DNA from: a virus
Virus record (IMG/VR): IMGVR_UViG_3300017740_000045
Location: 1 to 29,955 of that record
DNA length: 29,955 bases
Strand: one strand, 5' to 3'
Every line of letters begins with the position of its first letter. Within the stretch, counting starts at the first letter, position 1. Under the pieces are notes generated by a model that searched no databases, was not told the DNA's origin, and saw only the letters and a list, made by a program, of their open reading frames with translations. A program made the translations under genes and the position numbers. This document shows positions 1,927-26,240 of the stretch, piece after piece.

Positions 1927-1930
1927 TTAG
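1924..1930 (-). promoter_or_regulatory. Late-promoter-like motif CTAAATA upstream of gp15
   Basis: The minus strand reads CCCTAAATAAAG, where TAA is the gp14 stop codon. It shares TAAATA with the T4 late -10 consensus TATAAATA. It lies 37 nt before the gp15 ATG. The same CCCTAAATA string precedes gp13. Weaker than the NATAAATA matches. Confidence 0.35.
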
Positions 1931-3375
1931 GGCATCCCGAATGGGTTCTGCTCGCTAAAGTCAATTATCTTATCTGCTTCAGTCTCAATATTAATATTAT
2001 CAGCAAATCCATCATCAGCTGGTTGTGCATCAGCAACTCTAAGGGCATAAGATGCTCCAGAAGTTGCGCCAACTATATTCTCTCCAAGAGAAAATTCTCC
2101 AGTAACAGTTCCTACTTCAAGAACATTGGTTGTAGAATTCCATGTCCTAACTCTTCCAGTAGTTCCACTAGAAGATCCTGTTACTACTTCATTGAATGCG
2201 AATGTTCCAGATCCAGTACTCTCAGAATTTCCAACAACAATAGTTGGTGCGACAGAATATCCAAGACCAGCATTTGTAATATAGATATTAGTTATGGTTC
2301 CAGCAGCACTAACTACGGCAGTTGCAGCTGCCGAAACTGTAGTGACTCCTGATAAGAATATCTCATTTGTAAAATTAATTATTGGATTATCTACATATCC
2401 AGAACCACCTGATGTTATTGTTACAATACCTACAACGCCATCTCCAATTGTTGTTGTAGCAGCTGCTCCAACTCCATCCCCTCCTCCAGAAAATCTTACC
2501 CCAGGTGCTACAGTATATCCAGCACCAGAATTGGCAATATTAACTGCTTGAACTGATTGTAATTTTGGATTTGCATTTAGATTACACACGTTAATACCAC
2601 CAATCATGGTGGCAATACCAATCGCTGCTGTACCGCCCGCTGGAGCGGATGTGACGCCTACTGTAGGTACGCTACTATACCCACCACCCCTACTAGATAT
2701 GGTGAATAATCTAACGCCACCATCAAAGATAGCGGAAGTTGCTGTAGCAGTTACCCCAGCACCAACTAAAGTAAGTGTTTGTGTGGGACCTTGAATAGTA
2801 TTGATTCCATCATCAGTAGAACCATCATAATCTTCACCAATTAAATTATTATCAACTTCTTCAATTCCAGTTGCAATAACTTCATCCTCCAACTGGAAGA
2901 GTTCACAATATAATTCATAGACATAAAGATCTTGTAGTTGATAATATGGTTTTGCATATTCAACATCTTTAATTTCATAAATTCTATCATCAAGTGGAAA
3001 CCAAATAAGATCTCCAGACTTGGGTCTTGTCGATAACTTTATATTTTCCTGATCTTGAATTAATGGAGTTATATAATTCTCAAATCTCTCTCTTGAAATT
3101 ATAAGTCTTACTTCATCTTTAGATTCAATACCAAATTTTGATAGTAAATTTCCTGCTCCAGAATACTGATCATAATTGTCAATATATGCTTCAAGAGGAA
3201 GTGCTATATCAAACTTTGATTGAACTACTTCTCTGATAACAGTATTTTCTGCCAAGTATTTTCTAGGTAGATAAAAAATATCCACCCCATAAGTTCTTAG
3301 TTGTTCATTAATCAAATCCTGAACAAGATTCTGTTCAGAAGATGTGCCCTGAGTGAAAAAAGGATTTAATACCAT
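1927..3375 (-). CDS. 14: gp14 neck protein with inserted Gly-rich repeat domain
   Basis: A 482-aa homologue of T4 gp14 (256 aa), which forms the neck with gp13 and joins head to tail. The T4-like core occupies about residues 1-175. It has Y-G-V-D-I-F-Y-L-P-R-K-Y near 29-40, the N-L-L-S-K-F-G-I-E-S-K-D-E-V-R-L block near 77-92, and G-D-L-I-W-F-P-L-D-D-R-I-Y-E-I at about 121-135 (T4 G-D-L-I-Y-F-P-M-D-N). Residues of about 190-455 are an insertion with at least four repeats of the form I-x-(N/S)-x-G-x-G-Y-x-x-x-P, followed by a G-E-N-I-V-G-A-T-S-G-A module. The gp14-type tail I-N-I-E-T-E-A-D...N-P-F-G-M-P closes the protein. The ATG at 3375 overlaps the gp13 stop by one base (TAATG), indicating coupling. 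Identity is secure; the insertion is the oddity. Confidence 0.92.
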   Translation of the reverse strand: MVLNPFFTQGTSSEQNLVQDLINEQLRTYGVDIFYLPRKYLAENTVIREVVQSKFDIALPLEAYIDNYDQYSGAGNLLSKFGIESKDEVRLIISRERFENYITPLIQDQENIKLSTRPKSGDLIWFPLDDRIYEIKDVEYAKPYYQLQDLYVYELYCELFQLEDEVIATGIEEVDNNLIGEDYDGSTDDGINTIQGPTQTLTLVGAGVTATATSAIFDGGVRLFTISSRGGGYSSVPTVGVTSAPAGGTAAIGIATMIGGINVCNLNANPKLQSVQAVNIANSGAGYTVAPGVRFSGGGDGVGAAATTTIGDGVVGIVTITSGGSGYVDNPIINFTNEIFLSGVTTVSAAATAVVSAAGTITNIYITNAGLGYSVAPTIVVGNSESTGSGTFAFNEVVTGSSSGTTGRVRTWNSTTNVLEVGTVTGEFSLGENIVGATSGASYALRVADAQPADDGFADNINIETEADKIIDFSEQNPFGMP

Positions 3376-4217: not shown

Positions 4218-4239
4218 ATATTCACAAGTTTCCTAACTG

Positions 4240-4246
4240 TATTTAG
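4240..4246 (-). promoter_or_regulatory. Late-promoter-like motif CTAAATA upstream of gp13
   Basis: The minus strand reads CACCCTAAATACAG over the stop of the 128-aa gene. The CTAAATA ends 23 nt before the gp13 ATG, a spacing close to that of the AATAAATA motifs before gp8 (20 nt) and gp25 (22 nt). Motif and position evidence only. Confidence 0.35.
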
Positions 4247-5015: not shown

Positions 5016-5016
5016 A

Positions 5017-8000
5017 TTATGCGAAAGCAATTACTCTAAGATCTTTAACTCTAGGAACGAAACACTGACTCTTAGATATCAATGAAAGTTTAACCCTATA
5101 AGTCTTGAATGCAGGAAGTTGATCAACTGTAAATGTATATTCCCTGTAATCAATACTTTCACTATCAAATGCTTTTGTATTTGATTTAATAACGTATGAA
5201 TCAGATTCTCCGTTATTATTTTCTTCAGCAATCACTTGTCCTCTAGAATTCAAGTTTGAATACCCTGGGAAAGGTGTAAAGACTGGATCAAGTCCAGGTT
5301 CACCATTTATAGCAAAGAACGCTCTTAGATCAGCATCTTCTCCAACATGAGCAGCAACAATAATTTTAATTGAAGAAGCAGAATTTTCAAGAATAATTTC
5401 TTTCGAAATATACTGACATCCTGTAGGATCTTCCTCAATAGTATCTACTCTAGAATCTGTAGCGAAGTTTGTAATAACATCATTAACTCTATTTGAAGTA
5501 ATGATAGCATTAACTCTTTGAGCATCAATAACGGGACTTATGCGACTATCAGTCGTATTCAATGCAAGACTCATTTGCATTGATTTGCCACCAACAACAT
5601 TTGTCAACTTTAAGTCTTCATTAACTTTAGATGCAATCATTCTTGGAGTATCAAAATAATTCTTTTGATTTATTGTGATGTCTTCAAATCCCGCATCGAT
5701 ATATGGAATTTCATTTCCACTAAAACTCTTACTTGTGGTTGTTCTTACCTGAGCGGTAATATTTGTTCCAGGAACAGTAAGGTTTTGAACTTGTGGTGTA
5801 ATAATTTCAAATGGCATGTTTTGAGTAGCCCTTACATCTCGTCCACCAGTGGATTTCGTCTCTCCAATATAAAGTTTTGGATGACCAATGTCAGTGCTTC
5901 TATCAGTCCCTGTAGTGGCACTCATATCAATTTTAACTTTATATGAGTCAAAAGTAAATGGGTTCAGTTGAGTTACATTATTTAAATTGTGAGTTGCATT
6001 AATTCGTTGTAGGTTTATTCCAGAATTTTCATACTTGAATACTGGTGTTCCAACTGGATAAGTTCTTGGTTCAGACCCTCTAACAATGTTTCCACCAATT
6101 GTATTTCCAGAAACATTCGTATATTGAATAATTTCTTCTCCAATTAACAAACGTCCGACATTAGTTGTTCCAACACCAACACCTTCGAAGGATGAGAATG
6201 TTGTTGCACCGCCAACTACAATTCCACCAGTAGATCCTGAGGCAAATTCTGCAGTTAATTTAGTTGGTCTAACATCTGGAAGCACTCCAGATATTGTAAC
6301 CATATTATCTGCAAAATACATTCCATGATTTTGATGGTTGACTGTAAAGTGCGTTCCATCATTATCAATGTTAATGGTAGATATTTGAACATCACCACCA
6401 GTTCCGAGTCCAGCACTACCAGAAGAATTGAGTTCTGTGGTAATTCCTGAACTGTTGACATACATTAGTGTTTTTGCTGCACCAACAACAAATTCACCTT
6501 GAACATTATTAAATATAAGTTCATTAGTGATTCCAATTCCTGCAATTGTCAATCTTGCATTTGTGCCAACCGACGCTGCTCCAATAGTATCGATGCCAAC
6601 AACGTCACCGACCTGATATCCAGATCCACCATTATTTGCAATTGTTGCTCCACTAGCAACAATGCTTCCATTCACAATACTAATGTCCGCTGTTGCACCT
6701 CTACCGTTACCGGTAAGAGTGATAAGATTGACTCCAGTAAAGGTTTGACTTCCATCTGCAGGAGTGTATCCTAAACCAGCATTACTGATGTTAAGATTAC
6801 CTACAGCAGATGCTGCTACTCCTACCAAATCTCCAGTTGCATTTGTTCCTTGTTGTGAGAAAGTGTTTCCAATTTCATAAGAATCTGCTACTGTAGTTCC
6901 AAGACCAACTCTAATTTGTCTAGAGTTCATTATAATTGAATCTGGAAGAAGTTTTGGAATTTGATTATTCCCTCTTGTAAGTTCTGGACTATAGAATTCT
7001 ACAAATCCATTCTCAAGGAAATCTGCTCTATAGAGAGTAAACTTCAAATCTTCCCATTGACTTGGTTCCCATGTAGAAGCATTCTGCGATTTAAAGAGTG
7101 ATCCAAGATACGGTTGGTTTGAAATAAATGTATCAGTCAAAAGATCATTCTCACCAATTCTTGAGATATAAACACTATACTTGGTTGAGTTAGATGCTAA
7201 ACAAATTGCATATTCAGTTCCACCTTCGCAGTAGACAGGTGCTTTGAACTGAACATTTGTTGCAATAGATCCGTCAGCAGAAGTTTGAATTTCATCTGGA
7301 TCAAGAACAATTTCGGAGAATGGAAGAACTTTGGGTGAAGGAGCTCCATTTACCATTGTTCTCAATTGGAAGACGACGGGAATATCCATGTCATCTTTTG
7401 TTCTAAAGAACACATCACAACTAGTAAGGAAACAACCTGTATTGTCCTCAACTAAGAATGATTGTGCAAGCGGATCATACCAAGTAATAATAGTTTGAGT
7501 TCTTGATTGTGAAGAAACTACAGTACTTTCAAGAATCTCTGTTCCAAGATCTCTATTAACATTTCTACTTTGGAATTCATTTTTAAGTTCAACTCTTGCA
7601 TTCCTAACAGAAATGATATTTTCTTGAACTGTTTCCAATGTTCCAGAAGAGGCAAATCCTTCCTCTGCAATAGTAACTGCCGTATCTTGATTATTATCAA
7701 TATCATCAGTTAAAGTAAAGGTTTTAGTTCCAGTTTCAAACCTTGGGAAATTTAAGTTATTTGGATCTGGAATATAATAACTGCCAATTAAAGTAGCAGA
7801 TATATCAGAAATAAGTCTAATGTTTGCTACTTTTGCAATAGCACCACTTGTTTGACCACGGAGACTCATTCCCTCTTGTGCCCATCCATAATATTGACCT
7901 TGAGCTTCATTAGAAAGAGAGAATGTATCAACATTTAATATTGTTGATGTTGAAGAGTATGCACTTGACAAATCTTGCAAGTTATATGGATTTTGGCGGA

Positions 8001-11000
8001 AAGTTTTGGTTGGGGAATCGTAAGGACCTTCTCTGTGATTCGATTGTGATACTCTAAATCTGATAAAAGGTGCTGATGGAAGAGCAGTTGCGCCAACATC
8101 ACCAACAACAGGAGTGGTTCCAACAATAGTTTCTCCAACCTCAAATACACCAGACTCCATTGTAATTTCCATCAACTTAGGAACACAATACTTAGAAATA
8201 TCAACACCATCAAAGAATGCATAAAGTCTGGTAAGTGGTTTGACTTTCTTAGAAACAAACTCTACGTTTCTAGATCTCATGAATGGAATAAGATCTCTAC
8301 TTACAACTCTATCGCCAACAGATTCACGATCAAACTGTTCAGCAACAATTGTTCTTACACCGCTTCTAGAAGTAGTTCCAAACTCTCTTCTTGTTCTGAT
8401 TCTTTCTTCAGTAACTGAATCCGTTACTTGTCTGGTACTAGTACTGTGTCTTGCTCTACCACCCGGTCCTTGACGATGAATTGTATCAGGACCATTTTGA
8501 ATCACTCTTGTTCTAGTTGATTCAACTACATCAACACCAGTCCAGTTAGTTTCCCAAGAATCCCATATCATAGGACCAAATCCAGTTTGTGGATCAATAG
8601 TTCCAGCTTCAACAGCATCATTAAATGTTTCTACATAATTACCTTCTGTTTCAATAATTTTTGCTTCAAGTCTTGCAGTATCTACCCAATTATCAGATGC
8701 AGGTGTAAGTTCAAGAGTTCCATTCCAGAAACTAATTAAGAATGGAGTAACACTCTCAGTTCTAGTAGCAAAATTTTGTTTGATATATTCAACTTCGGCA
8801 TACTCAAGTGTTAAAACATCATTTTGTTTTCTAACATTATTTCCTTCAACTATATTGAAGTTTAAGTCTTCAGTTGGATCTGTATCAACAACTGGACCAA
8901 AAATCATATCAACAGAGTTTGTATAATGTCTTGGTCTCAGTTCATTATATTTTCTATCAATTGCATTATTGAGTTTGAATGAACTATCTTGTGCTAGGAA
9001 ATCATTAAAATTATCGACAAAGAATCCAGACTTAAATCTATTCAGTCCTTCACTATCAGCAATGAAAAGATTTGCAGTTTCTTTTTCTAAGAGGGAAAGA
9101 GTTGTGTAATATTCAAGACTCTTGATTCTATTTTCAAGTTCCTTGATATCTTCCATTCTAAATCTCTTATGTTGCATAAAAGATAATTTTGCATCTTCCG
9201 GACGATATAGATATGCAGGAAGATTAATTCTGCAAACTTCAATCGCATCATTAACAGGGTCTGGTCTCTGTGGATTATCTGATGGCGTTCCATATACAAC
9301 TTGGAATTTTCCATCTTTTGATAAAAATACTCTATCAACTCTTCCTTGATAGTATGAAACATCTGTCAGAATTGCTTCATCAGAAGCCAATACATTTGCT
9401 GCAGATTGTCCAGATCCATTAAATGATCTACCTAAGAATTCTAAAGGTGATCTAGACCCTTCAGTCGCAGTATAATTAGAAACTCTTGGTCTGATATCAA
9501 TAATATCAGAGTTTCTATAGATATCTACGGATTTAATTTCATCACTATAATCAAACTGTCCATATGAATTAACAGTTGTTATATCTCCATCATCAGTGCT
9601 AGAATATGAAGCACTTGAGAAATAAACTTTTATTTGCTTAGATGGAGCAGAAGAGTCACTCTTTCTCTTTACTCTACCATGAGAATAGAAAGTATCTTCT
9701 TGTCCAGTTTTAAATGTGTAGTTTGATGATATATTAAAACTAGGAGTTGAAAGAGTCGATACTAATGCAGATGCACTTGATTCTTGGAACTCTAAAGTTT
9801 CTCCTTCAATAAATGCAATTTCATTTTTGTAGAGGAAAGAGATTGAAGAATCATTTAATTTTTCCGCAACTATAGCAACAGAACCACTTGTTTGCCCAAT
9901 TAGTTGTTCACCAATCAACAATTCTGCAGTTGTAGTTGACTGAGTGTTTAATGATTGAAGAGAAACTTGAGGACAAGATGGTAAATTTGTATCAGAGGAT
10001 TCAAAAATACCATGAATTTCAATAATATCTGGAACATTCAATGAAATAACTTCATCTTCAACTCTGGTTCCGAAAGGATAATTTCCAAATGTAAGACCAT
10101 TATTTAAAGTGGTAGCACCAATTCCAGATCCTGCAAGTTTTGACAGATTTATAGTAACAGAATTTACTCTGTTTTTAATTTTTTCCTTTGCTTTTGGTTT
10201 TACTTTTCTAAGTGTTGCAATTAAAGTGGCACCAGTATCATTTGCACCCAAATTACGAATTTGTAAAGTATTTCCAGTCGTAGAGATATCAAATTTATCT
10301 CCACTTAATGCTTCTGTAACTCCATTAGATCTAACTAAAAGATATCTCTCTTCATCAAAGGGAAGGAAAGTCTCATTAGCACTGGATACAACTTGTGTAG
10401 ATAATTCATTACTTACAATATTTACAGTAAAAGTCTTTCTAATAACTAAAGAAGCTTCTGCAAGATCTACATTAGAAACATTGACTTTTGGTAAGGGGGT
10501 GAATAGAGAATTTCCGGATGAAGGTGCTAAGTTTGTTGTAAGAACTTTAAGATCAGTCACACTTAAAGTTGATGCTGGAAGGAATCCACTTGAAATTCCA
10601 GTTACTGCAGTAACTCCTTCTACAGAAATATGGGTTGTTCCTACACTAGTAACTCTACCAATAATAGGATCTCCGTCTAGTCCTGGTGTGGTGTCACTAT
10701 ATTGAATAAGATCATTTTCTTTTACAATATTTCCTGGGAATGATGGATTTGCACTTCTTATTGTACTTAAACCACTTGAAAGTGGACTTACTGTAGCAAT
10801 ACCAACTAAGAATTTATTAGATTGGATTACATCAGCACTGAAAGTATTAACTCCAACTACACCATTATTTGTTCCATATATTGACTTGACATCAGAAAGT
10901 CCATGCTCAGTAATAGCAATAGCAATTCTTCCATTTTGAATTCCATTAAAGGTGAGTTTTTCATTTGGTATAAATGTTCCACTGGTCTCATAGACCGTAA

Positions 11001-12552
11001 TTGCCGTTCCAGCAGAAACTGCATGTCTTAAGAAACCAGTAGCTCCACTATTATCACCTTTGACAAATGTTGGGATAGATAAAGTATGTGCCTGATTTAA
11101 TGCAATATCCGTAATTGTTTGAACATCATAGAGAGCAAGGTTCCACTCATTCTCGTTTGTATTAGATGTACTATATGATCCAGACTCTAATTTGAAGTCA
11201 TATATTCTTGCAACTCCAACTTCATTTCCTGGAAGAGTTTCTGAACTACTTCCAACTCTTTGATCTCTCAAACTTACAAAATAAGTATTACCAAGACCAA
11301 CTGTAGGTGTTCTATGAACCCTATTCAACCTAAGTGTTGGACCTGTATTGTAAATTATATTTTGATCTTCAATAGTTCTTGTCGTTCTTGGTTTATTAAC
11401 ATCCAAGTAAATTGCATTTAAGGTTTCAATTTCATATCCTTTAACATATGCTTTTCCTGGGGAGATTTTATATAGACTAAGATCATTACTAGGAGTTACT
11501 CCACCTGGAGTAAACTGCCCCGTATTAAAAATACCACCATTACCAACTCTATCATTTAAAGAGTTTAAAACTGTAACATCAAATGGTTTTACATAATAAT
11601 GTCCAGATTCATCAAAAGTTCTTCTAGCAAGAGTATCAGTTAAATCATTAAATCCAATACTACCACCAAAGATAGTTTTTCTAGATTCAGTTTGAAGAAC
11701 ACCATTAATTACTGTGGCGAGCAATATAAAATTATTATCATTAAAATCATCAAGTGCTTTTTTAAATAAACTTACACTAATTCTAAGTCTATCTGCACCT
11801 GGAGCTGCATAATTATTAAACCCTTGAGAATTATCATTAAGAGTTTCATCTAAATCTGCATTTATGATTTCTTCATTTACAAATAGTCCAATTCTATAAT
11901 TAGGATTATTTGAATATTGATCTAAAATTAAAGTTTCTTTATTTACAGATACAAAATTTCCCCTTATAAAATAAACTCCATTATCTATTTGAAAAGAAGA
12001 ACCAATAGCAGAGGCATCAGTTTCAATTGTTGATGCTAATGGAGATCCTGCAGCAATAGTGGTGTTTCCAAGTAAACCTGAAGAAATAATTTCACTGCAA
12101 GAAATTTGCTCTCCATCCAAAAATGTTTGAGATGAATTGTTTGATGTGCTAGAAGAGAGGTAGTTTACGTAAAGTGTAAGATTTCCATTCTCAGAATCTT
12201 CTGGTTGTAGAATAGAATCTACAAAAGCAGTTACTCCAGACCTTTGCCCAGTTATTTTTGTTCCAATTAACTGATCGGCATATGCAGATACAGGAACCCC
12301 TTGAAATGCATTCACTAATTGAACACAATAATATATTTGGTTATATCCAGTATTTCCTGGAATTACTTTAGCACCTTCTTTAAAAAAATGTTGACCAAAT
12401 TTTTCAATCTGGTCTTGCAGAATAGACTGAAGACTAGTTAATTCTCTAGCTTGTACAGGATATCCTGGTTTAAATAATACCTTATGATAATCGTTCGTGG
12501 AGTCAAAATCGTCAAAGTAGGGAGCTACATTGAGGTTCGTTTGTTGTGGCAT
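5017..12552 (-). CDS. Giant DUF4815-type virion structural protein (baseplate/fibre)
   Basis: A 2511-aa protein. The N-terminus has the DUF4815 signature: P-Y-F-D-D-F-D at about residues 12-18, then F-K-P-G-Y-P-V-Q-A-R-E-L-T-S-L-Q-S. Other blocks known from cyanophage structural proteins follow in order. A coiled coil E-D-I-K-E-L-E-N-R-I-K-S-L-E-Y-Y-T-T lies near 1133. An Arg-rich stretch at about 1345-1430 ends D-L-I-P-F-M-R-S-R-N, followed by R-L-Y-A-F-F-D-G-V-D. A beta block from P-L-A-Q-S-F-L-V-E-D (about 1695) runs to near 1845. GxGY modules lie near 1910-1990, HG and RG modules near 2070-2175, and a C-terminal domain with F-T-P-F-P-G-Y-S-N at about 2390-2511. Its place between gp8 and gp13 is where T4 has genes 9-12, so a peripheral baseplate or fibre-anchoring role is likely. 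Direct T4 homology is not evident. Confidence 0.85.
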   Translation of the reverse strand: MPQQTNLNVAPYFDDFDSTNDYHKVLFKPGYPVQARELTSLQSILQDQIEKFGQHFFKEGAKVIPGNTGYNQIYYCVQLVNAFQGVPVSAYADQLIGTKITGQRSGVTAFVDSILQPEDSENGNLTLYVNYLSSSTSNNSSQTFLDGEQISCSEIISSGLLGNTTIAAGSPLASTIETDASAIGSSFQIDNGVYFIRGNFVSVNKETLILDQYSNNPNYRIGLFVNEEIINADLDETLNDNSQGFNNYAAPGADRLRISVSLFKKALDDFNDNNFILLATVINGVLQTESRKTIFGGSIGFNDLTDTLARRTFDESGHYYVKPFDVTVLNSLNDRVGNGGIFNTGQFTPGGVTPSNDLSLYKISPGKAYVKGYEIETLNAIYLDVNKPRTTRTIEDQNIIYNTGPTLRLNRVHRTPTVGLGNTYFVSLRDQRVGSSSETLPGNEVGVARIYDFKLESGSYSTSNTNENEWNLALYDVQTITDIALNQAHTLSIPTFVKGDNSGATGFLRHAVSAGTAITVYETSGTFIPNEKLTFNGIQNGRIAIAITEHGLSDVKSIYGTNNGVVGVNTFSADVIQSNKFLVGIATVSPLSSGLSTIRSANPSFPGNIVKENDLIQYSDTTPGLDGDPIIGRVTSVGTTHISVEGVTAVTGISSGFLPASTLSVTDLKVLTTNLAPSSGNSLFTPLPKVNVSNVDLAEASLVIRKTFTVNIVSNELSTQVVSSANETFLPFDEERYLLVRSNGVTEALSGDKFDISTTGNTLQIRNLGANDTGATLIATLRKVKPKAKEKIKNRVNSVTINLSKLAGSGIGATTLNNGLTFGNYPFGTRVEDEVISLNVPDIIEIHGIFESSDTNLPSCPQVSLQSLNTQSTTTAELLIGEQLIGQTSGSVAIVAEKLNDSSISFLYKNEIAFIEGETLEFQESSASALVSTLSTPSFNISSNYTFKTGQEDTFYSHGRVKRKSDSSAPSKQIKVYFSSASYSSTDDGDITTVNSYGQFDYSDEIKSVDIYRNSDIIDIRPRVSNYTATEGSRSPLEFLGRSFNGSGQSAANVLASDEAILTDVSYYQGRVDRVFLSKDGKFQVVYGTPSDNPQRPDPVNDAIEVCRINLPAYLYRPEDAKLSFMQHKRFRMEDIKELENRIKSLEYYTTLSLLEKETANLFIADSEGLNRFKSGFFVDNFNDFLAQDSSFKLNNAIDRKYNELRPRHYTNSVDMIFGPVVDTDPTEDLNFNIVEGNNVRKQNDVLTLEYAEVEYIKQNFATRTESVTPFLISFWNGTLELTPASDNWVDTARLEAKIIETEGNYVETFNDAVEAGTIDPQTGFGPMIWDSWETNWTGVDVVESTRTRVIQNGPDTIHRQGPGGRARHSTSTRQVTDSVTEERIRTRREFGTTSRSGVRTIVAEQFDRESVGDRVVSRDLIPFMRSRNVEFVSKKVKPLTRLYAFFDGVDISKYCVPKLMEITMESGVFEVGETIVGTTPVVGDVGATALPSAPFIRFRVSQSNHREGPYDSPTKTFRQNPYNLQDLSSAYSSTSTILNVDTFSLSNEAQGQYYGWAQEGMSLRGQTSGAIAKVANIRLISDISATLIGSYYIPDPNNLNFPRFETGTKTFTLTDDIDNNQDTAVTIAEEGFASSGTLETVQENIISVRNARVELKNEFQSRNVNRDLGTEILESTVVSSQSRTQTIITWYDPLAQSFLVEDNTGCFLTSCDVFFRTKDDMDIPVVFQLRTMVNGAPSPKVLPFSEIVLDPDEIQTSADGSIATNVQFKAPVYCEGGTEYAICLASNSTKYSVYISRIGENDLLTDTFISNQPYLGSLFKSQNASTWEPSQWEDLKFTLYRADFLENGFVEFYSPELTRGNNQIPKLLPDSIIMNSRQIRVGLGTTVADSYEIGNTFSQQGTNATGDLVGVAASAVGNLNISNAGLGYTPADGSQTFTGVNLITLTGNGRGATADISIVNGSIVASGATIANNGGSGYQVGDVVGIDTIGAASVGTNARLTIAGIGITNELIFNNVQGEFVVGAAKTLMYVNSSGITTELNSSGSAGLGTGGDVQISTINIDNDGTHFTVNHQNHGMYFADNMVTISGVLPDVRPTKLTAEFASGSTGGIVVGGATTFSSFEGVGVGTTNVGRLLIGEEIIQYTNVSGNTIGGNIVRGSEPRTYPVGTPVFKYENSGINLQRINATHNLNNVTQLNPFTFDSYKVKIDMSATTGTDRSTDIGHPKLYIGETKSTGGRDVRATQNMPFEIITPQVQNLTVPGTNITAQVRTTTSKSFSGNEIPYIDAGFEDITINQKNYFDTPRMIASKVNEDLKLTNVVGGKSMQMSLALNTTDSRISPVIDAQRVNAIITSNRVNDVITNFATDSRVDTIEEDPTGCQYISKEIILENSASSIKIIVAAHVGEDADLRAFFAINGEPGLDPVFTPFPGYSNLNSRGQVIAEENNNGESDSYVIKSNTKAFDSESIDYREYTFTVDQLPAFKTYRVKLSLISKSQCFVPRVKDLRVIAFA

Positions 12553-12558
12553 AATTCT

Positions 12559-14112: not shown

Positions 14113-14131
14113 TTGACGGACTTTTTTTCTT

Positions 14132-14139
14132 TATTTATT
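14132..14139 (-). promoter_or_regulatory. Late-promoter-like motif AATAAATA upstream of gp8
   Basis: The minus strand reads CTAATAAATAAAG in the 32-nt gap between the giant gp7-like gene and gp8. It ends 20 nt before the gp8 ATG, which would leave a leader of roughly 15 nt. It matches NATAAATA, the T4-type late consensus reported for cyanomyoviruses. Confidence 0.55.
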
Positions 14140-14144
14140 AGAGA

Positions 14145-17100: not shown

Positions 17101-20100
17101 ACAGCATATAAATTTTCATCTGGAAGGAATGTGGTGTTAGAAGTTCCAACAAAACTTGCTGTCGCAATACCAATGGCAGATGAAGCCGTTCCTACATGAT
17201 TATATCTAATTTTTTCTCCACTCACAAAGAAATGATTTGGAATTTTAATAGAGTTAGTTGTTACATTTATAACATCACTACTATTACCTAAGAAATATCT
17301 TTCAAAGATTTTTTCATTTTCATGAGTTAGTTCAAATTCTCTCTTAATATCATTATCTGTTCCAAAATATTCTCCAATAGAATCATTAATAGTTGCATTT
17401 GTAAAAGATATTTCAGATGCTAAATCAGTATTTTCATTTACAGATAAAGCATTCATGCATACATTGACCACTGTATTAATACTTGCATTTGGAGTAAATA
17501 CAAGAGATACAGTTCCTGCTGCAGAAACTCTAGATCCAAAGGTTCCAAGACCAGAAGCAGTTTCGATATTTGCATATTCAGTCATGTAAGTTTCACGACC
17601 TTGAGTAGTATCAACATAATCATCAACAACCACTATTTCAGACAACTGAATTGAAGAGTTGGTCGTATCAGTAACTTGAACTACAAAATATGCTCCATCA
17701 AAATTATTTGGATAGTCGGCAACGGTATTAATTCCAGGAGATCCCGATGAAGGTATGGTAGTAGTTCTTCCTTCAATTTGAGATCTTCTGAGATTTATTG
17801 TGCCAATTCCTGTAAAAGTATTACTAGAAAGTCCAACAACAATAGTGTTTATTGCTCCAGTTGTTGCAATACCAACAGCAGTTGGAATAAAATCTACTTT
17901 TAGATTAGTTCCGTCAATATATGCATGATATGTTCCAAGACCAGTTTCAGAATACTCTCCAATACTCGTTGACAATCTTCCATACTCTAACAATTCAATA
18001 TCAGATCCTTTATGAATAATATTTAATTCAGTTGCTTCAAATTCATCATTTCTTGAAATGTCTGGGTTAATATTAACTAGAACTTTTGCACTTGAATATG
18101 TGTGTCCAATTGAAACAATTGTCTTAGTTGTATTTGATGGTATTTCAATACTATCAGTATCAATTAGAACAACTCCACCAAGACTTGTACTGCCGGTTCC
18201 AAGTACAACATCATCCAAATTATATGAAAGTGTAGAGACATCATAATCATTAACTGAAGAGTTGACTGGGTGGAATTCCAAACGTCCATCAGTTCCAGTA
18301 ATCGAGAAGTCAAAAGAACCTTGATCATATGCAGTTTCAACTCTAGCATATTGATTCATGTATGCTCTAGAATTGTCATGAAGAAGATCAACAAGCATCA
18401 ATTGTCTTTGAGCTACAAATCTCTTATCTCTTATGTAAGTAATATATTTTTGGAATCTATTTGATGTGATTGCAAATGTATCAACAATACTAAAATCCGT
18501 TGGTCTTGGATTACTATTAAACTGACCACTAATATCATCAATTGATAAAACTCTATTTCCAATAGATTCGAAATAATCCGTTAAAATTCTATTTGAAAAT
18601 ATAATCTCATTAGAAATAAACTTAGAATTTTGAGATAAATTATTTTCAGTAACTAAATCAAAATCATAGACGCAATTTAAACTTGCAAATCCGTCAAGTT
18701 GATTGACTGCATTAACACTTGTAGTATTTGTTGTAAGTCCAACAGACATTACATTAGTGTTTTTTGTTTCCAGTTGATAATCAGAGAATTTTTTAAATCC
18801 TAAAGTATGATTGAGACTAGCAACCGAATCCTCCCAAGTGGAATATGGAACTTTTGATTTTAAAGAGTATGAGAAGTTTTGATAATAAAAACTATCTTGA
18901 ATTTTTTGAAGGTCATTATTTAAGAATCCAATATCATTTTGCCATCCTTTGATATCTTTTGAAAATGCATCTAAATTTATATAAACATCAAAACATTCTA
19001 TAGAAGATGCGATTCCTTGAGTTTTGGAACTAGATCCTTCTACAATCTCCCCAATAACAAATTTTTCAGAAGAAGAAACTCTAAGAATACCAGTTTTACT
19101 ATTCCAACTATCTACAATTCCTTTTGCCGAATCAGAAATTGCAGGTTCTCCTACAATATAATTATTTGTATTCAGTTCTACCTCAAAGGATGGAAAATGT
19201 TTCTGAGCAAGAATTTTTCCTGAAGAATTTACAGAATCAAATGTACCTACAATTTCCCCACTAGAAGTAAACTCAGACATATCAAATGATACATCTCCAA
19301 TACCACCAAGATTTTCATTGGTTGAAGTTACAGTAAACAACTGATAATCATATGCAGAAGAGTTATACCCCTTACCAGTTGATCCAACACCAACACTTAC
19401 ATTTTCAATTAAAACTTTATCTCCAGTAGTAAATGGGAAAGAATTGACTGTACTAAATCCTACGGATAAAGTTGCTGTTGCTATTCCTGAAGATGAATAA
19501 ACAATACTATTAATACCAACTCCAGCCCCACTTTCAGTTGGAATAATGGTTGGAGCAACAGCATTCATTCCTTTTGTATTTTCAAGAATCTCTACATTTG
19601 ATTTTCCTACAGTTACTTTTAAATCAACATCAGAAACAATCTTATTAGTTCTACCATCAAGAACAACTAATTTTGGAGGAATTGAAAATCCACGTCCAAA
19701 GGAAGTAATACCAATAGAATTAAACGATGCAAGAGAATTAATTTTTATAACTTGTGGTAAAATAGCGGTTGGAGTTAGAGTTTTATCAGATGGATAGTTA
19801 AATCCAATATCTTTAAGTGAAATTGATTTCACAGATCCAATACCAGAACCAACTGTTTCAAGTATTGCTCCATTACCAGCACCTGTTGTAACCGTGGTTA
19901 TTCCTGGCAGTGAGTAATAGTTTGAACCAGAATTTGTGATTTCAATTTTTGCAATTGGCCCATAAGTGTGGGTACAATCTGTTTCATAGGAAATATCAGA
20001 AGATGATCCATAGGATGATTCTTCGGGAACATCTTTAACAGAATATGTAAATGATGTAGTCGTTCCTACAGTAATTACATGTTTTCCATTGTAACCACTT

Positions 20101-23100
20101 TCTTTTGAGTTTATTTCATTTCCAGAAATAACTTCACTATCAACGAATATCCCTTCTTTGACTTCTGGAACATTAGTTTCTTTTACAACATCTAAAGTGT
20201 AATATAAAATTTGTGGAATATCTTTATTGACTGTTAATGTTGCTTTTGCACCAGAAGTTCCAACTTTACCATCTTTGATCAATTCAAAGTTGGAATTTAC
20301 TTTAGATGTATTCCAAACTTTAGTTAGATTTTTATCTGAATATAAATTAAATTCAAATGCGGAATAAGTTGTCCCTTGATTAGAGAATGCAAGCGATGGA
20401 TCTGATAAATCAAATTCAACTGTGGAATCTTTATATAAATCAATTGGTGGATTTATTGGATTGATGGTTCCATCAGAAGTACTTGTTATACTAACAACTT
20501 CTGGTTTATCTTGAATTGAGTTAAAATAAGTATTTGATAATTTTATTGTATTTCTATCTACACTGACAATATAGTATATTTTTTCATTTTCCAATCCTTC
20601 AGATGAAGTTGTGGCCGTATGAATTACCTTATCACCAGTTTCAAATCCATGATTTGGTAGTGAAATTGTATTTGTGGATGTATTGACTCCAGCAGTTGCA
20701 AATCCAATGGGATTGACTACAATTCTAGAATTATAGTCATTATATTTTACTGTTACTATACCAGTGTTTTGTGGGTTGACAGATACAAATATATTATGTG
20801 GAGAACTTAATCCATGAGTTGTTGCTGTAGAAACTGTGACCAAATTCCTTTGAACATTACCAGTAATTACATTATAGTTTGTGGTAAAACTGTGAGTATC
20901 TCCAGTACCTACTGTCCTAAAGAATAGCGTAGATGAGTCTGTATTTGCTCCTCCAACAAAACTTCCAGTAGTTCCAAGACCAACTCTAATAGTTGCGATT
21001 CCAATCAAATCTTCAGTTATTTTTGCAACAAATAATGTTTGACCATTCGTTAATGTTATTCCAACTCCAACATTGGTTTCATCTTGAACAATAATACCAT
21101 TTCCACCAGTTCCTGGAGAATATGTTAATTGATCTCCAGTGTTAAGGTTATGATTTTTGATAAAAATACTCTTAGTCGGAATAAATGCTTGAGTTGCACC
21201 AGATCCTGGATTTGCAAAAGAAATTGTTGTTCCTATCCCAACACCAGCAGTGGTTCCAAGTCCAACAGCACTTGCTGGATCAAAATAAATTTGCTTGTTT
21301 AGAGAATATGCATAATCAGTTTTAAATCCTGCATTAATTTTAATCTTTCTTGGATCTTCGTAGATGTGCTTACCGATGGTGTGAGAAGCACCTGTAGTCC
21401 CCTCTACTGCCCTCAAAACTCTAATTCTAGAGGATAGGGCATCTACGTTTAATACTTTAACTTTCTCTGTTCCAACACTAAGAATATCATTTTCTCTAAT
21501 GTTGGGATAATCTAAACTTCCATTGACTCTAAAGTAAGTGACGATACCAGTTACTCCATCAGTTCCTATAGCTACACCAGTGCTTCCTACTCCTGCTATA
21601 GTTAATCGATTAGTTTGAATTCCGGCGCTATAAGTTCCTTCAATTTGAGACGATGTTGTGGACAATCCAGAAATTGAAATCGTATCTATGTTTGTAAAAT
21701 TATGAGGATTATTGGCAAATATTAAATATTCACCTTTTTTCTCTCCAGGATAAAATTCAACATTTTCAATAATACTTGATGCAACACTAATATTACTTAC
21801 ATACTTTCCTTTTAATCTGCTTATTTTTGCAGATACATGATTTCCTCCAGTCCCATCATTATTAAATACCAACTCCTCATTAACTCTATATTCACTACCA
21901 CCAGTTGCTATACCAATACTTGAAATTTTTCCTGGAGTAGTTGCTGAAACTGTAGACGTTTGATTAAATTTATTTGGAATATACAAATATGGATATTCGG
22001 AATCTTCTTCAATTAAGTTAAGTGGTTGAGTATTTCTCTTCCATCCATTTGTTTCAATATCATAACCATCTTGATTTGATCCAAGTTCAAAATTAAATTC
22101 ATTAGGAATAGATTGATAGTTTTCTCCTATAATATATGGAAACACTGGTTCTCTATATTTTTCAAAAACTCCTGAAGTTGAAGAGAATTGATCATTAACG
22201 GTCATAAAATATGCATATGTTCCTTCTGGATAATCAGGTGTCACACAGAATCTTCCATTATTAATATCAAGTACGGAATCATCAGAAACTTCATTGTGAG
22301 TGTAATCTTCTACAAAAAATCCTTCAGGAAAAATTGAAGTTGATGGTCTACCATTTTTTAAATCTAGTTTATATCCAGACTTCATCGGGGATATTATTCC
22401 GCCAGTTTTTGTTTTATATCCATATGGTCCATAAATTGGATTGCCATCATATGCAAATCCAATAATTGGAGAGTGTTCATCTGATAGTTCTTCAACACCA
22501 TCAATTTTCTTTAAATCAGATTCTGCATAAAGAAGTTCTCCATCCTGATTTACAGAGGAAATAGATTCTCTCAACACTCTTGGGGCATATAAATGGCAGT
22601 ATTGAAGTCCATAATTGCCATCAGATATAATACCATCATCTTTAGAAAAATATGAGAAGTATTTTTGATATAGATTTACTCTCCAAGATTTGATATTTGC
22701 CTTAAACTCTGGTAGTACTTGAGTAGATCCTGAAGTAATTACATCAATTGATGTATTATCCTGAGAATATCCACCACCAGATTCTATGACATTTATAGAT
22801 ATTAAAGATCCATTCTCTACAATCGGTGTAAGAACACATCCAGAACCATCACCATTAACAATGAGGTCTGGGATTGAAAAATATTTACTACCAGAATTTA
22901 AAACAATAACTTGAACAATTCTTCCATTACTTAAAACTGGTTGGACTTGTGCATTAATACCAGAATCTAGTGTTATTTCTGGTTGATAATCCAAATTAAT
23001 AATATCAGAAGATCCATACCCAACACCAGTATTTTCAAGATGAACTGAGGTTATTTCACCTCTAACAACTGGTCGAATTTTTGCTTCAAATGTTTCTAAT

Positions 23101-26100
23101 CCTACAGAAGATATTCCAACTTTACCAATAAGACTTACTGAGATTTCTGGATAATTAAATACATGGGTTCCAACTCCAATAGAAGTTATATCAATATACT
23201 GCTTTGTTCTATAATAAAATTCTCTATCAGATTCTGACCCAATTTGGGAAAGATTAAATGAATTATCATCTACCTTAGTCACATAATATTCAGTGTTTGT
23301 AGAAAGTCCAGAAGCTATAGTTCCAACATGAGTATACTTTACAGTCTCTCCAGATTTATAATCATGATTTTCAATCTTAATTAAATTTGAAGACGTGCTG
23401 ATTCCAGATTCGGCAGATGCTGTTCTTTTCTTATTCTCATATCCAGATCCACCATCAACAATATTAATTGAATCAACGATTAATTTTTTACCTACAGATT
23501 GTAAAGAATGCCTACCAATACCATATGATGTCAAATATACTGTATTGATTCCAGAGATAGCATCTCCCTCGGTTCTATGCAATCTAACAGTTACATTATC
23601 AATAGTAGAAACAAAATATGATGAGTTAGTAACTATGCCAGCAATTCCACTTTGATCAGATGTTTTATAAATTACCTGTTCTGCATTTTTAAATTTATGA
23701 TACGTAGAAAATCCAATCCTAGATTGTGCTGATGTTGTGCCAATAACAACTTGATTTGATGATACATCTGCAAAGAAATCTGCATTATGGTTAACTTTTT
23801 TCATGTTAACTTGGCCAATTGCCCCAGATCCATTTCCACCAACAATTTTTAAAGTAGGAGTTTCTTCATAATCAAATCCAGGATCTATAATTTTAATTTC
23901 TTCAAAAGATCCAGAAACTGCAACATATCCTGTTGCTCCAGATCCAACAGAGTCTTTAATTATCAAATCAGGAACATTTATAGCATCAATATTAGTTCCT
24001 CTAGCAAGAACTTCAATATTTTCTATTTTACCATATTTAATTACATCTTTTGATTTGTAATTTAAAATTTCTACTCCATTAACTAAAATACCAGTAAAAC
24101 CAGATTTAGTTTCATTAATAGATCCATCGTCAATTGGATTAGAAATTTTTCTAAGTAATTTTTGAGGATTTAATTCTTTTCCATTGAATTGATATGGTTT
24201 AATTGTACTATTAGATACTGTAGTTTCTTCAGAAAGAGATACAAAGTTTGAGTTAAGTATATCATTTCTGCTTTTTGCAAACTTTATAGTAAATCCATCA
24301 ATTCTTTTTATAAAATACAATCCATCATCAAAAAGTCCAACACCTCTTACTTCTCTTGTAACAGAACTCCCTGACGCATCAATGTAGTTTTCACTAACAG
24401 TTTCTGCGGAATAATAAACAGTGTCTCCAGTATATAATCCATGTTCTTTTCCTGGACTAATTTTAAACTCACTTCCACTAAAAGTTCCAGAAAAAATAAC
24501 TTCTCTAATAGATAAATCTAATGGTTGTTTATTATAATTTGGAATAGATGGAGATGCAATTAAATAATCGCTACCATTTTTATATACATTACTAACATCA
24601 GTTGCATATTGGAAAATATTAGTAAAAACGTTGGATACGCCTTTCTGAATGATTCTTTTAATTTTATAAGTTAAGTTTAAATTTAAAAATCCTTGACCTT
24701 TGATAGTAAAAGACTTATTAGAAATTATATTAAATATATTTGTTTTCTTTTCATTACCTACACTTTCAATTAAATTGGCAGAATCTCCAGATTTGAAGTT
24801 ATGCTCAACATTCAAAGTTATTTTATAAGTATTATCTGATGAATCTAATAATTCTAATTTACTTACTTTGTATGAAGGTGCTACATTATAAAACCACTTA
24901 TTTGTTTTAAGGTTGTTCTCAGAGCATCCAAGAGTTGAAATATTAATAATTCCACCCTTTATTAAATTATTGGTATTTTCTACCAATTCAACATCACTTA
25001 AAACAGAGTTAACTCTGACTTTAATAATTTCATCCTGATCTAAATTAGATCTACCATATGCAAAAGTATTAACTCCTACAGTAGAAGCATCAGATATATT
25101 TCCTGTTACGTTTGTGATTCCAAAAAATTGAGTTAGAGATTTTGATGTATACGACACTACTCCTGTGGTGGTATCATCGTAACTGACATATAATTCTCCG
25201 GTAGATCCAAATCCAACGGTAGAATCTACATCAATTGATATAGAATCCGTAGATACATCTCCAATAACTTTAGTAGAAGGTTCTACTGCAAATTTACCAT
25301 ATAATGATCCATTAACATTAATATCTCTATTATATCCACCATCAAAACTAATCTTATAGAAAGTTTGACCATATCCAACCGATATTTTTTCAACATCAGT
25401 TATTGGAGAATATGCTTTCCCTATTTCACTATCAAACTTATATGCATCTTGATATAATGTTGCATTTTCTAAATTTGAAGGGTCTCCTTCTACTGCTTCT
25501 ACAACTAAACTATTAACAATTCTATATTGAGCATCAGAAGGTGCAACTAGAAAATCTCTAGGTTTAATTATTTGTACATCTTCATTATATAATGCTTTAA
25601 ATAAAATTTCAAACGATATATCTGTGCCCTTACTTAGATAAAAGTCTTTTGACTGTTTTATAAAAAGATTTTGATCTAATTCTGGAGTTAGTGATCTTTC
25701 TTCAAATCCAGGTGCTAATTGATGTTTTGTTTTTAATAAAAATTCTTTTAAAAATAAACAACTTAAGTTTTTAATTGTAGACTTATCTTTATGATCTTCA
25801 GATTCAGTTTCTTTAAATACTACTTCTTCTTTATTCAGTTCACTCTTGTATGAAGTGATTCCAACAAATCCTCTAATACATCCAGTAAACGAAAACTCAG
25901 TTTTTCCAGTATATGTAATTACTTCATCATCTATCTGCAAAAGACCATAAGAATCTGGAAACCCATTAGTTCCATATGGAGATCCTGCAACATCAACATT
26001 TATAGTTTCCGCATCAAACTCAATATCCCCATTTAACAATACAGATTCATTCAAATTTGTAGTATTATCTAATTTGATATATCTGTCAATATTTTGAATC

Positions 26101-26240
26101 AGATCAACTGGTCCACCTTGATACTCTTGCCCAAGATAATACTGTTTTAAAAATTGAGATATAAGAGGATAATCTTCCTGCACATAAGTGGGAAGTTGGT
26201 TAGATACGATAGTATTAAACTGAACTCTAGTTTCTGACAT
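14145..26240 (-). CDS. 7: Giant gp7-type baseplate wedge protein with repeat modules and YHYH domain
   Basis: An uninterrupted 4031-aa frame, about 40% of the window, between gp6 and gp8. Two blocks resemble the C-terminal third of T4 gp7 (1032 aa), the wedge initiator. One is K-D-F-Y-L-S-K-G-T-D-I-S-F-E-I-L-F-K-A-L at about residues 195-214 (T4 Y-D-F-Y-S-T-K-G-I-E-A-S-Y-K-F-L-F-K-V-L). The other is S-L-K-S-K-V-P-Y-S-T-W...H-T-L-G-F at about 2459-2480. About 2,200 residues lie between them: many HGhxxGD modules, GxGY modules and a YHYH-type domain (about 1180-1345, with I-G-F-A-Y-D-G-N-P-I-Y-G-P-Y-G-Y). A further ~1,550 residues follow, with more modules and a conserved R-S-G-V-Q-N-T block near 3240. 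The ATG at 26240 has only a weak purine-rich site upstream. Assignment to gp7 rests on synteny plus remembered motif similarity. Confidence 0.85.
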   Translation of the reverse strand: MSETRVQFNTIVSNQLPTYVQEDYPLISQFLKQYYLGQEYQGGPVDLIQNIDRYIKLDNTTNLNESVLLNGDIEFDAETINVDVAGSPYGTNGFPDSYGLLQIDDEVITYTGKTEFSFTGCIRGFVGITSYKSELNKEEVVFKETESEDHKDKSTIKNLSCLFLKEFLLKTKHQLAPGFEERSLTPELDQNLFIKQSKDFYLSKGTDISFEILFKALYNEDVQIIKPRDFLVAPSDAQYRIVNSLVVEAVEGDPSNLENATLYQDAYKFDSEIGKAYSPITDVEKISVGYGQTFYKISFDGGYNRDINVNGSLYGKFAVEPSTKVIGDVSTDSISIDVDSTVGFGSTGELYVSYDDTTTGVVSYTSKSLTQFFGITNVTGNISDASTVGVNTFAYGRSNLDQDEIIKVRVNSVLSDVELVENTNNLIKGGIINISTLGCSENNLKTNKWFYNVAPSYKVSKLELLDSSDNTYKITLNVEHNFKSGDSANLIESVGNEKKTNIFNIISNKSFTIKGQGFLNLNLTYKIKRIIQKGVSNVFTNIFQYATDVSNVYKNGSDYLIASPSIPNYNKQPLDLSIREVIFSGTFSGSEFKISPGKEHGLYTGDTVYYSAETVSENYIDASGSSVTREVRGVGLFDDGLYFIKRIDGFTIKFAKSRNDILNSNFVSLSEETTVSNSTIKPYQFNGKELNPQKLLRKISNPIDDGSINETKSGFTGILVNGVEILNYKSKDVIKYGKIENIEVLARGTNIDAINVPDLIIKDSVGSGATGYVAVSGSFEEIKIIDPGFDYEETPTLKIVGGNGSGAIGQVNMKKVNHNADFFADVSSNQVVIGTTSAQSRIGFSTYHKFKNAEQVIYKTSDQSGIAGIVTNSSYFVSTIDNVTVRLHRTEGDAISGINTVYLTSYGIGRHSLQSVGKKLIVDSINIVDGGSGYENKKRTASAESGISTSSNLIKIENHDYKSGETVKYTHVGTIASGLSTNTEYYVTKVDDNSFNLSQIGSESDREFYYRTKQYIDITSIGVGTHVFNYPEISVSLIGKVGISSVGLETFEAKIRPVVRGEITSVHLENTGVGYGSSDIINLDYQPEITLDSGINAQVQPVLSNGRIVQVIVLNSGSKYFSIPDLIVNGDGSGCVLTPIVENGSLISINVIESGGGYSQDNTSIDVITSGSTQVLPEFKANIKSWRVNLYQKYFSYFSKDDGIISDGNYGLQYCHLYAPRVLRESISSVNQDGELLYAESDLKKIDGVEELSDEHSPIIGFAYDGNPIYGPYGYKTKTGGIISPMKSGYKLDLKNGRPSTSIFPEGFFVEDYTHNEVSDDSVLDINNGRFCVTPDYPEGTYAYFMTVNDQFSSTSGVFEKYREPVFPYIIGENYQSIPNEFNFELGSNQDGYDIETNGWKRNTQPLNLIEEDSEYPYLYIPNKFNQTSTVSATTPGKISSIGIATGGSEYRVNEELVFNNDGTGGNHVSAKISRLKGKYVSNISVASSIIENVEFYPGEKKGEYLIFANNPHNFTNIDTISISGLSTTSSQIEGTYSAGIQTNRLTIAGVGSTGVAIGTDGVTGIVTYFRVNGSLDYPNIRENDILSVGTEKVKVLNVDALSSRIRVLRAVEGTTGASHTIGKHIYEDPRKIKINAGFKTDYAYSLNKQIYFDPASAVGLGTTAGVGIGTTISFANPGSGATQAFIPTKSIFIKNHNLNTGDQLTYSPGTGGNGIIVQDETNVGVGITLTNGQTLFVAKITEDLIGIATIRVGLGTTGSFVGGANTDSSTLFFRTVGTGDTHSFTTNYNVITGNVQRNLVTVSTATTHGLSSPHNIFVSVNPQNTGIVTVKYNDYNSRIVVNPIGFATAGVNTSTNTISLPNHGFETGDKVIHTATTSSEGLENEKIYYIVSVDRNTIKLSNTYFNSIQDKPEVVSITSTSDGTINPINPPIDLYKDSTVEFDLSDPSLAFSNQGTTYSAFEFNLYSDKNLTKVWNTSKVNSNFELIKDGKVGTSGAKATLTVNKDIPQILYYTLDVVKETNVPEVKEGIFVDSEVISGNEINSKESGYNGKHVITVGTTTSFTYSVKDVPEESSYGSSSDISYETDCTHTYGPIAKIEITNSGSNYYSLPGITTVTTGAGNGAILETVGSGIGSVKSISLKDIGFNYPSDKTLTPTAILPQVIKINSLASFNSIGITSFGRGFSIPPKLVVLDGRTNKIVSDVDLKVTVGKSNVEILENTKGMNAVAPTIIPTESGAGVGINSIVYSSSGIATATLSVGFSTVNSFPFTTGDKVLIENVSVGVGSTGKGYNSSAYDYQLFTVTSTNENLGGIGDVSFDMSEFTSSGEIVGTFDSVNSSGKILAQKHFPSFEVELNTNNYIVGEPAISDSAKGIVDSWNSKTGILRVSSSEKFVIGEIVEGSSSKTQGIASSIECFDVYINLDAFSKDIKGWQNDIGFLNNDLQKIQDSFYYQNFSYSLKSKVPYSTWEDSVASLNHTLGFKKFSDYQLETKNTNVMSVGLTTNTTSVNAVNQLDGFASLNCVYDFDLVTENNLSQNSKFISNEIIFSNRILTDYFESIGNRVLSIDDISGQFNSNPRPTDFSIVDTFAITSNRFQKYITYIRDKRFVAQRQLMLVDLLHDNSRAYMNQYARVETAYDQGSFDFSITGTDGRLEFHPVNSSVNDYDVSTLSYNLDDVVLGTGSTSLGGVVLIDTDSIEIPSNTTKTIVSIGHTYSSAKVLVNINPDISRNDEFEATELNIIHKGSDIELLEYGRLSTSIGEYSETGLGTYHAYIDGTNLKVDFIPTAVGIATTGAINTIVVGLSSNTFTGIGTINLRRSQIEGRTTTIPSSGSPGINTVADYPNNFDGAYFVVQVTDTTNSSIQLSEIVVVDDYVDTTQGRETYMTEYANIETASGLGTFGSRVSAAGTVSLVFTPNASINTVVNVCMNALSVNENTDLASEISFTNATINDSIGEYFGTDNDIKREFELTHENEKIFERYFLGNSSDVINVTTNSIKIPNHFFVSGEKIRYNHVGTASSAIGIATASFVGTSNTTFLPDENLYAVKVDDNLIKIATSAENALKSIPVVVDLESVGIGTSHRFIATNQNAKVIVAIDNVIQSPVVSTAVTTVLADRVQSVDNVIKFSGITSFFGSDIIQIGNEIMKIEGVGIGSTNTIRVRRPWLGTVLSGYGTGTLVTKISGNYNIIDNILNFVEAPFGNVPIGSTTNPPDERDWTGITTSSSFQGRSFMRSGVQNTSDDSYHKNYIFDNISSQFNAVSNEFTLEQNDSNVSGISTENAVILVNDVFQTPGLNSGYVIAESSGISSIAFQGTNTVPLGPDVGISSFPKGGIIVSVGSDAGLGYQPLISAGGTAIISGLGTISSISIGNSGSGYRVGIQTIVNVGVGTSSTGTGNIEFIGTAAISGGNIVSVAITNPGSGYTSTNQPFVVFDDPLSYSNIPLQYSSSSVGIGTSAVVDIVVGQGSSVIDFTIKNTGYGFGNGEILTVPIGGSTGIPTTSSFSEFKITIDEVINDKFAGWSIGQLQVLDDINDFIDGSRKNFPLSLAGNSISIVSGKGSKINVQDVLLIFVNNILQVPGEGYTFDGGSIVTFTEGLKVGDSVSIMFYKGTGDIDVIFRNTIETVKKGDTLQIKHDASLGQASSLDEDERVVDLIKSTNIVQTNSYSGPGNTKDVTLERPVVWCKQTEDIFIDQIAIGKNRELYEPVINPSAYITKSVGVGSTAIYVDSLRPTFDSQNENDTDLTFQKKIKFISQDSKVSAAATAIVTGLGTISSISISNGGSGYGSAPVVTIGSTVQSVGLGTTATATSSITAGVVTSITITNAGTGYTNTSAPVVLIAPPSHNTEEVSVNTYSGDNGVIVGFGTTTVGIGTQLIFDIHIPYDSFLRDSNIAGTALTISSISKNDYFVVKNSNVGSSSTSILSLDASDSTVGLGTVFADNVYEVDSAVSISTSISGISTYVRRVFAKVNQFNYGSSGITTSDFFGSFSWGRIDIAARSKENSYSSYAEGSGISTATMVVRSNFLKFKNYDL
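22180..22710 (-). other. YHYH-type domain within the gp7-like protein
   Basis: Residues of about 1180-1345 contain I-I-G-F-A-Y-D-G-N-P-I-Y-G-P-Y-G-Y and, about 55 residues later, L-D-I-N-N-G-R-F-C-V-T-P followed by P-E-G-T-Y-A-Y-F. This is the layout of the YHYH family (G-x-A-x-D-G-x-P-I-Y-G-P-Y ... N-G-x-x ... Y-H-Y-H). The histidines of the naming motif are replaced, giving Y-A-Y-F, so any metal- or ligand-binding role of those residues is probably absent. Domain limits are approximate. Confidence 0.65.

Follow-up and report, generated by a model that had tools for sequence, protein, structure and literature searches.

We analysed a 29,955-base virus contig (IMGVR_UViG_3300017740_000045; hereafter the window, meaning this whole stretch of DNA) and observed that a glycine-rich unit with a GxGY signature, present in its neck protein gp14, its gp7-like and gp8 baseplate wedge proteins and a DUF4815 structural protein, is one homologous module common to neck and baseplate proteins, as judged by sequence profiles. 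Two units of ~45 residues together make up the working module. The contig comes from a T4-like marine cyanophage, whose nearest relatives are the Synechococcus phages Bellamy and S-SM2. From a solved relative and a likely T4 relative described below, we infer that the pair is probably an ancient accretion domain that protrudes from the virion surface and serves in docking or weak adhesion.

The literal pattern of the original prediction, made from the sequence of the window alone, gave 3 matches in gp14 and 1 in gp7, and counting by this pattern was dropped as too strict. We used profiles, the first of which was built from the four gp14 copies only. This profile detected the gp7-like protein with a whole-protein E-value of 4e-9 (best units, 23.6 and 19.7 bits), and scored 11.5 bits on the DUF4815 protein and 7.2 bits on gp8. 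In 20 local shuffles of all window proteins the top score was 7.1 bits, so gp8 is marginal at this step. When the profile was iterated over seven phages, ~100 copies were found above 6 bits, compared with 1 in the reversed and shuffled controls; over 11 phages the number of copies above 6 bits was 135, against 1 in reversed sequence, and within the scanned region all of the 135 copies are in gp14, gp7, gp8 and DUF4815. Finally, a two-unit profile scored 67 and 63 bits on gp14, up to 66 on gp7, 43 on gp8 and 20 on DUF4815, with E-values of 2e-6 or better in all four proteins and hardly any hits in reversed or shuffled controls. The gp14-only search is the unbiased test, because the two-unit profile was trained on relatives. 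Cross-matches to PHROG families were consistent with these assignments: the gp14 array matched families of wedges, of tail fibres and of virion structural proteins, and a part of gp7 matched the gp8 family.

With the profiles we located the GxGY motifs of gp14 at about nucleotides (nt) 2688, 2526, 2406 and 2268, those of DUF4815 near 6777 and 6627, and those of gp8 near 13446 and 13315. In the gp7-like open reading frame (ORF), 9 units exceeded 6 bits with the iterated profile and about 14 were present when the degenerate ones were counted, including those near 23870, 23440, 23030, 22890, 22775, 21890, 19920, 16120, 15990, 14900 and 14760. The predicted positions and counts were thus recovered (about 14 units in gp7, four in gp14, two in DUF4815), as was the sharing between neck and baseplate proteins; for gp8, where two or three units had been expected, two were found.

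We next considered how the units are arranged. Among ~1,900 hits, the spacing of consecutive units was nearly always 35–60 residues, with a peak at 40–50. In an AlphaFold2 model of the full gp14, the residues of the array mostly had predicted local distance difference test (pLDDT) values of 93–97; in module 1 they were mostly 94–97, with one lower block near residue 260. The tandem array, proposed for structure prediction, was modelled with high confidence. The gp7 pair at residues 3758–3843, modelled separately, was all-beta, and its core mostly had pLDDT values of 91–97, with two lower blocks (74 and 85). Each unit comprises three strands in both models. Two units, each of three strands and with strands 2 and 3 joined by the G-x-G-Y turn, would make up one small all-beta domain. 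T4 gp14 (PDB 9mkb) aligns solely to residues 2–157 of the window gp14, and the T4 gp8 alignment has a gap where the cyanophage gp8 module sits; hence the GxGY modules are insertions relative to T4 gp14 and gp8. The layout of the cyanophage gp14 is an N-terminal T4 gp14 core, the inserted module array and a conserved C-terminal tail. The cyanophage carriers belong to the same families as T4 gp14, gp7 and gp8 and follow the same gene order, whereas the T4 proteins are far shorter and have no such module; at the profile threshold, the T4 genome gave no GxGY unit.

A search of 177,635 PDB sequences with the pair profile (hmmsearch) gave one match below E 10, the tailspike Dpo31 (Dpo36) of the marine podovirus Carin-1 (PDB 28lx, 28mg, 8ck1), with an E-value of 1.6e-6. 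Profile positions 11–70 fall on chain residues 445–506, inside the D3* domain (434–536), and the unit spacing is correct. According to its authors, D3* is an immunoglobulin-like (Ig-like) insertion that protrudes from the beta-helix, has a distant DALI likeness to sugar-binding Ig-like domains and is soluble when alone (PMC13317679). Like the cyanophage modules, D3* has two GxGY motifs about 50 residues apart and is inserted in a virion protein; it differs in that it occurs once, in a podovirus depolymerase with a trimeric beta-helix, whereas the cyanophage modules are repeated and lie in the neck and baseplate. Dpo31 was reached by the profile only, as phmmer with the gp14 array gave no match in the PDB, and a Foldseek search of the PDB with the gp7 pair model returned nothing significant.

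The motif is short and rich in Gly, Ser and Thr, and one could suppose that convergent glycine-rich beta-turns or low complexity, with no common domain, account for the hits; the marginal gp8 score of the gp14-only profile would agree with this. We find such convergence hardly credible, since reversed and shuffled sequences of equal composition were almost free of hits, a pair profile of fixed spacing matched all four window proteins and exactly one PDB sequence, and the fold was predicted with confidence in two proteins.

A second, more remote link was to the T4 tail sheath. The gp14 model (residues 222–312) aligns to residues 99–188 of gp18 (3foa) with a Z-score of 5.4, at 3.1 A over about 76 residues and 18–20% identity. 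An hhalign comparison of the pair profile with gp18 domain I scored 21.4 (P 0.002) and placed the GxGY turn on the sequence GSNY; the highest score among 20 column shuffles was 13.0, and the reversed control scored 8.2. When 137 windows over 17 T4 virion proteins were scanned, the top five were all around gp18 domain I. GSNY and GKNY stand in register in the two half-units of T4 gp18, and GKNY is not kept in all relatives. With single gp14 pairs, hhalign gave P 0.03–0.14 against the same domain, which is not convincing, and the generic pair profile was needed. Domain I protrudes outward, binds the retracted long tail fibres and the baseplate, and makes no inter-subunit contacts; the mutations G106S, S175F and A178V block fibre retraction (PMC3004832). 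G106 is the first Gly of GSNY when the initiator Met is not counted, a numbering that is required by A178. Like the cyanophage modules, the gp18 domain (PDB 3FO8, 3FOA) is an inserted beta domain, and its two units, although degenerate, are in register. However, domain I, which has the fold of a six-stranded barrel, lies in the sheath and includes an alpha helix, whereas the cyanophage units are in gp14, gp7, gp8 and DUF4815, and the similarity is remote. We conclude that kinship of the GxGY module with gp18 domain I is supported but remote.

To describe the evolution of the copies, we compared them across the 11 phages. Each of the 11 has four copies in gp14, and in gp7, gp8 and DUF4815 the copies occupy recurring orthologous slots. 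Similarity was 0.365 for orthologs, 0.150 for paralogs of the same genome and 0.146 for paralogs of different genomes. The nearest neighbour was an ortholog for 109 of the 135 copies and a same-genome paralog for 3. Mapping the slot label onto the unit tree took 38 changes (shuffled mean, 109); for the genome label, 114 were needed (shuffled mean, 99; mean of within-slot permutations, 112). These trees were built on windows of just 32 residues, so that single branches mean little and the result is that of the label tests. The original prediction had read the shared module as a sign of duplication or recombination within the locus. Ongoing duplication and exchange among neighbouring genes would agree with the homology of all copies, which implies duplication at some time, and with same-genome paralogs being very slightly closer than expected (p about 0.007). 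We consider it very unlikely at the present sampling, as the copies cluster by orthologous slot and not by genome. From the sequences, the units share ancestry and exchange within the locus is not supported; the copies appear to be vertically inherited.

The module is not confined to the four proteins. A set of 24 diverse pairs matched 20 PHROG families, including head closure, several baseplate wedge, hub-lysozyme, tail fibre and unnamed virion proteins. When whole genomes of related cyanophages were scanned, additional copies appeared in ORFs for tail fibres, and a GxGY match was also present in the Sf-CH8 gene for the baseplate hub and tail lysozyme (L431:579-2834). Because the module occurs in tail fibres and hub-lysozyme elsewhere, the sharing by four proteins holds within the window as a description of its content and is not specific to the locus. 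A tblastn search with the gp14 array alone, with the low-complexity filter on, matched only 7 phage records. Searches of Pfam and NCBIfam with the repeat regions found no family; for the 24 pairs, no Ig-like family was among the Pfam hits up to E 1, and Pfam has no model for the module. In the openly accessible literature we found no earlier description of the motif, and one in subscription journals is possible. Phage Ig-like accretion domains (Big, I-set and others) are small beta domains too, found scattered among virion proteins and either inserted into them or appended, and have been proposed to bind cell-surface carbohydrate weakly, a view quoted in PMC9230969. The GxGY units differ from these in that they match no Pfam Ig family, carry a distinct signature and appear vertically inherited.

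The GxGY module is likely to be an accretion domain of ancient origin in the virions of tailed phages, where it has been inserted in conserved core proteins or appended to them. The cyanophage studied here has it on the neck ring (gp14), the baseplate wedge (gp7 and gp8) and the DUF4815 protein, and it would most likely protrude from the particle as a low-affinity surface for docking or adhesion. What it binds may be fibres of the phage itself and adjacent virion parts, or glycans of the host surface. The common exposed function that had been suggested, perhaps adhesion, is thus plausible, since both D3* and the likely relative gp18 domain I protrude. A further point in favour of adhesion comes from S-SSM7, whose gp14 (762 amino acids (aa); L409:36704-38992) has a lectin-like Laminin_G_3/ConA-like domain at residues 323–448, nested within the GxGY array (E 7.6e-6, just below the Pfam cut-off).

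Several observations weigh against this reading. When the gp7 pair model was compared with PDB structures (VIA list), the matches were weak (Z 3.6 or less) and mostly Ig-like, and gp18 was not among them. The sequence link to gp18, with P about 0.002, is from a shallow alignment (number of effective sequences (Neff) about 2), and the sheath protein gp18 of S-SM2 has no GxGY unit. The supposed functions of the two relatives also differ, being fibre docking for T4 gp18 and possibly glycan contact for Dpo31. Finally, the C-terminal region of gp14 contacts gp15 extensively in the T4 virion (PMC12270204); as this part of T4 gp14 packs on gp15, the cyanophage gp14 array could be partly buried.

The same T4 contacts would suit a structural cement, in which the pairs pack on their neighbours (e.g. 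gp14–gp15 or gp7–DUF4815) and make the particle stiffer, without binding an external ligand. Copy number and slot are fixed across the 11 phages, as expected for a defined role in assembly. Yet D3* protrudes from its spike and is soluble by itself (PMC13317679), gp18 domain I is free of inter-subunit contacts (PMC3004832), and no interface is common to the tail fibres, hub-lysozyme, wedges and head closure in which the module recurs; we therefore regard cement as doubtful. Alternatively, the module might specifically bind carbohydrate on the cyanobacterial surface, and the docking by gp18 domain I would then be a separate later use. This is possible, if on balance improbable. The distant DALI likeness of D3* to sugar-binding domains (PMC13317679), the xylan-binding domains and depolymerases among the weak matches of the gp7 pair model, the lectin-like domain nested in S-SSM7 gp14 and the presence of the module in tail fibres all speak for it; however, the structural matches are all weak, and one would hardly expect a receptor binder in the neck, which is distant from the host surface.

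The coordinates of the modules and their carriers are given in Table 1. On the minus strand the genes follow the order gp25, gp6, gp7-like, gp8, DUF4815, three small ORFs, gp13, gp14, gp15 and gp16. The S-SM2 counterpart of the gp7-like protein is annotated as gp7 baseplate wedge initiator. The gp7-like protein also has a YHYH domain at residues 1254–1352 (window 22185–22481; Pfam PF14240, E 3.8e-22). In S-SKS1 (L086, 16000-28283) the gp7 region reads as several shorter ORFs (707, 1571 and 494 aa) and not as one, owing either to split genes or to sequencing frameshifts. Between gp7 and gp8 there is an extra gene for an 814 aa protein in P-TIM68 (L084:17789-20233), and an extra 2OG-Fe(II) oxygenase and baseplate-like gene in S-SCSM1 (L407:20510-21863). 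In searches of phage records, T4 fibritin (wac) matched 1,427 records, with Synechococcus outside the ten commonest organism names; for gp14 there were 378 Synechococcus records.

The carriers also share companion modules. A second module, of the SGA/GE type (consensus GEKITGQSSGATGRVASWNSDTKILEVYLNSGTFIVGETITGQES), is present in gp14, gp7, gp8 and DUF4815; over the 11 phages it scored above 8 bits 66 times, and never in reversed sequence. It was absent among the Pfam hits. Matches of gp14 residues 196–450 to aIF2-gamma were read as those of a generic barrel from this module and not as kinship. A third module (consensus IQIDDEVMLIKSVSGNKLTVRRGQDGTT) is common to the C-terminus of gp15 and the gp7-like protein, and had no reversed hits. 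The virion proteins of these phages appear to be built from a small common kit of beta modules.

Table 1. Carrier proteins, GxGY modules and companion modules in the window (nt positions)
Feature	Position	Strand	Score or match
gp14 neck protein (head closure Hc2), 482 aa	1927..3375	-	Pfam PF11649 E 3.3e-24; phrog_460 E 3e-122
DUF4815 (VrlC-like) structural protein, 2511 aa	5017..12552	-	PF16075 E 1.1e-52; phrog_358
gp8 baseplate wedge protein, 517 aa	12559..14112	-	PF09215 E 3e-16; phrog_438
gp7-like baseplate wedge initiator, 4031 aa	14145..26240	-	phrog_2885 E 0
gp14 GxGY two-unit module 1 (units 1 and 2)	2455..2757	-	pair profile 63.2 bits
gp14 GxGY two-unit module 2 (units 3 and 4)	2200..2472	-	67.5 bits; E 3.5e-24
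DUF4815 GxGY two-unit module	6562..6843	-	20.2 bits, E 2.2e-6; first unit 11.5 bits with gp14-only profile
gp8 GxGY two-unit module	13261..13521	-	43.1 bits, E 1.6e-13; at the T4 gp8 gap
gp7 GxGY module, residues 734-811	23808..24041	-	27.1 bits
gp7 weak single GxGY unit, residues 915-939	23424..23498	-	7.3 bits pair profile; 10.8 bits unit profile
gp7 GxGY module, residues 1016-1084	22989..23195	-	11.8 bits
gp7 GxGY two-unit module, residues 1097-1163	22752..22952	-	25.3 bits; also matches gp8 family phrog_438
gp7 GxGY module, residues 1429-1486	21783..21956	-	10.3 bits
gp7 GxGY two-unit module, residues 2089-2157	19770..19976	-	32.0 bits
gp7 GxGY two-unit module, residues 3351-3436	15933..16190	-	36.0 bits
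gp7 degenerate third GxGY unit, residues 3438-3499	15744..15929	-	13.3 bits
gp7 GxGY two-unit module, residues 3758-3843	14712..14969	-	66.3 bits; modelled with AlphaFold2
SGA/GE module directly after gp14 array	2059..2193	-	54.6 bits
SGA/GE module in gp7, residues 2372-2405	19026..19127	-	26.1 bits
Four SGA/GE modules of DUF4815, span 8119..12264	12091-12264, 10948-11067, 9778-9912, 8119-8178	-	38.7, 44.5, 44.7, 13.8 bits
SGA/GE module in gp8 region	12904-12963		
Third module copies	940-1086, 16695-16832, 21360-21479		

As a tentative extension, which we think unlikely to hold in full, the GxGY pair could be an unnamed accretion domain of ancient origin, with gp18 domain I and Dpo31 D3* as its homologues, and in marine T4-like phages it could form a common docking surface from neck to baseplate that holds tail fibres or host glycans, replacing the docking on fibritin whiskers and sheath in T4.

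The largest phage proteins include the giant neck and baseplate proteins of marine T4-like phages, which are mostly unannotated. With one module recognised in about 20 structural families, and with a solved example and a likely T4 relative that has been studied genetically, much of their mass would gain a name and a role that can be tested. The module would also tie a classical T4 fibre-retraction mutation to a conserved motif, and would join the Ig-like domains as a second kind of accretion domain with which to ask how virions gain surfaces for adhesion and docking.

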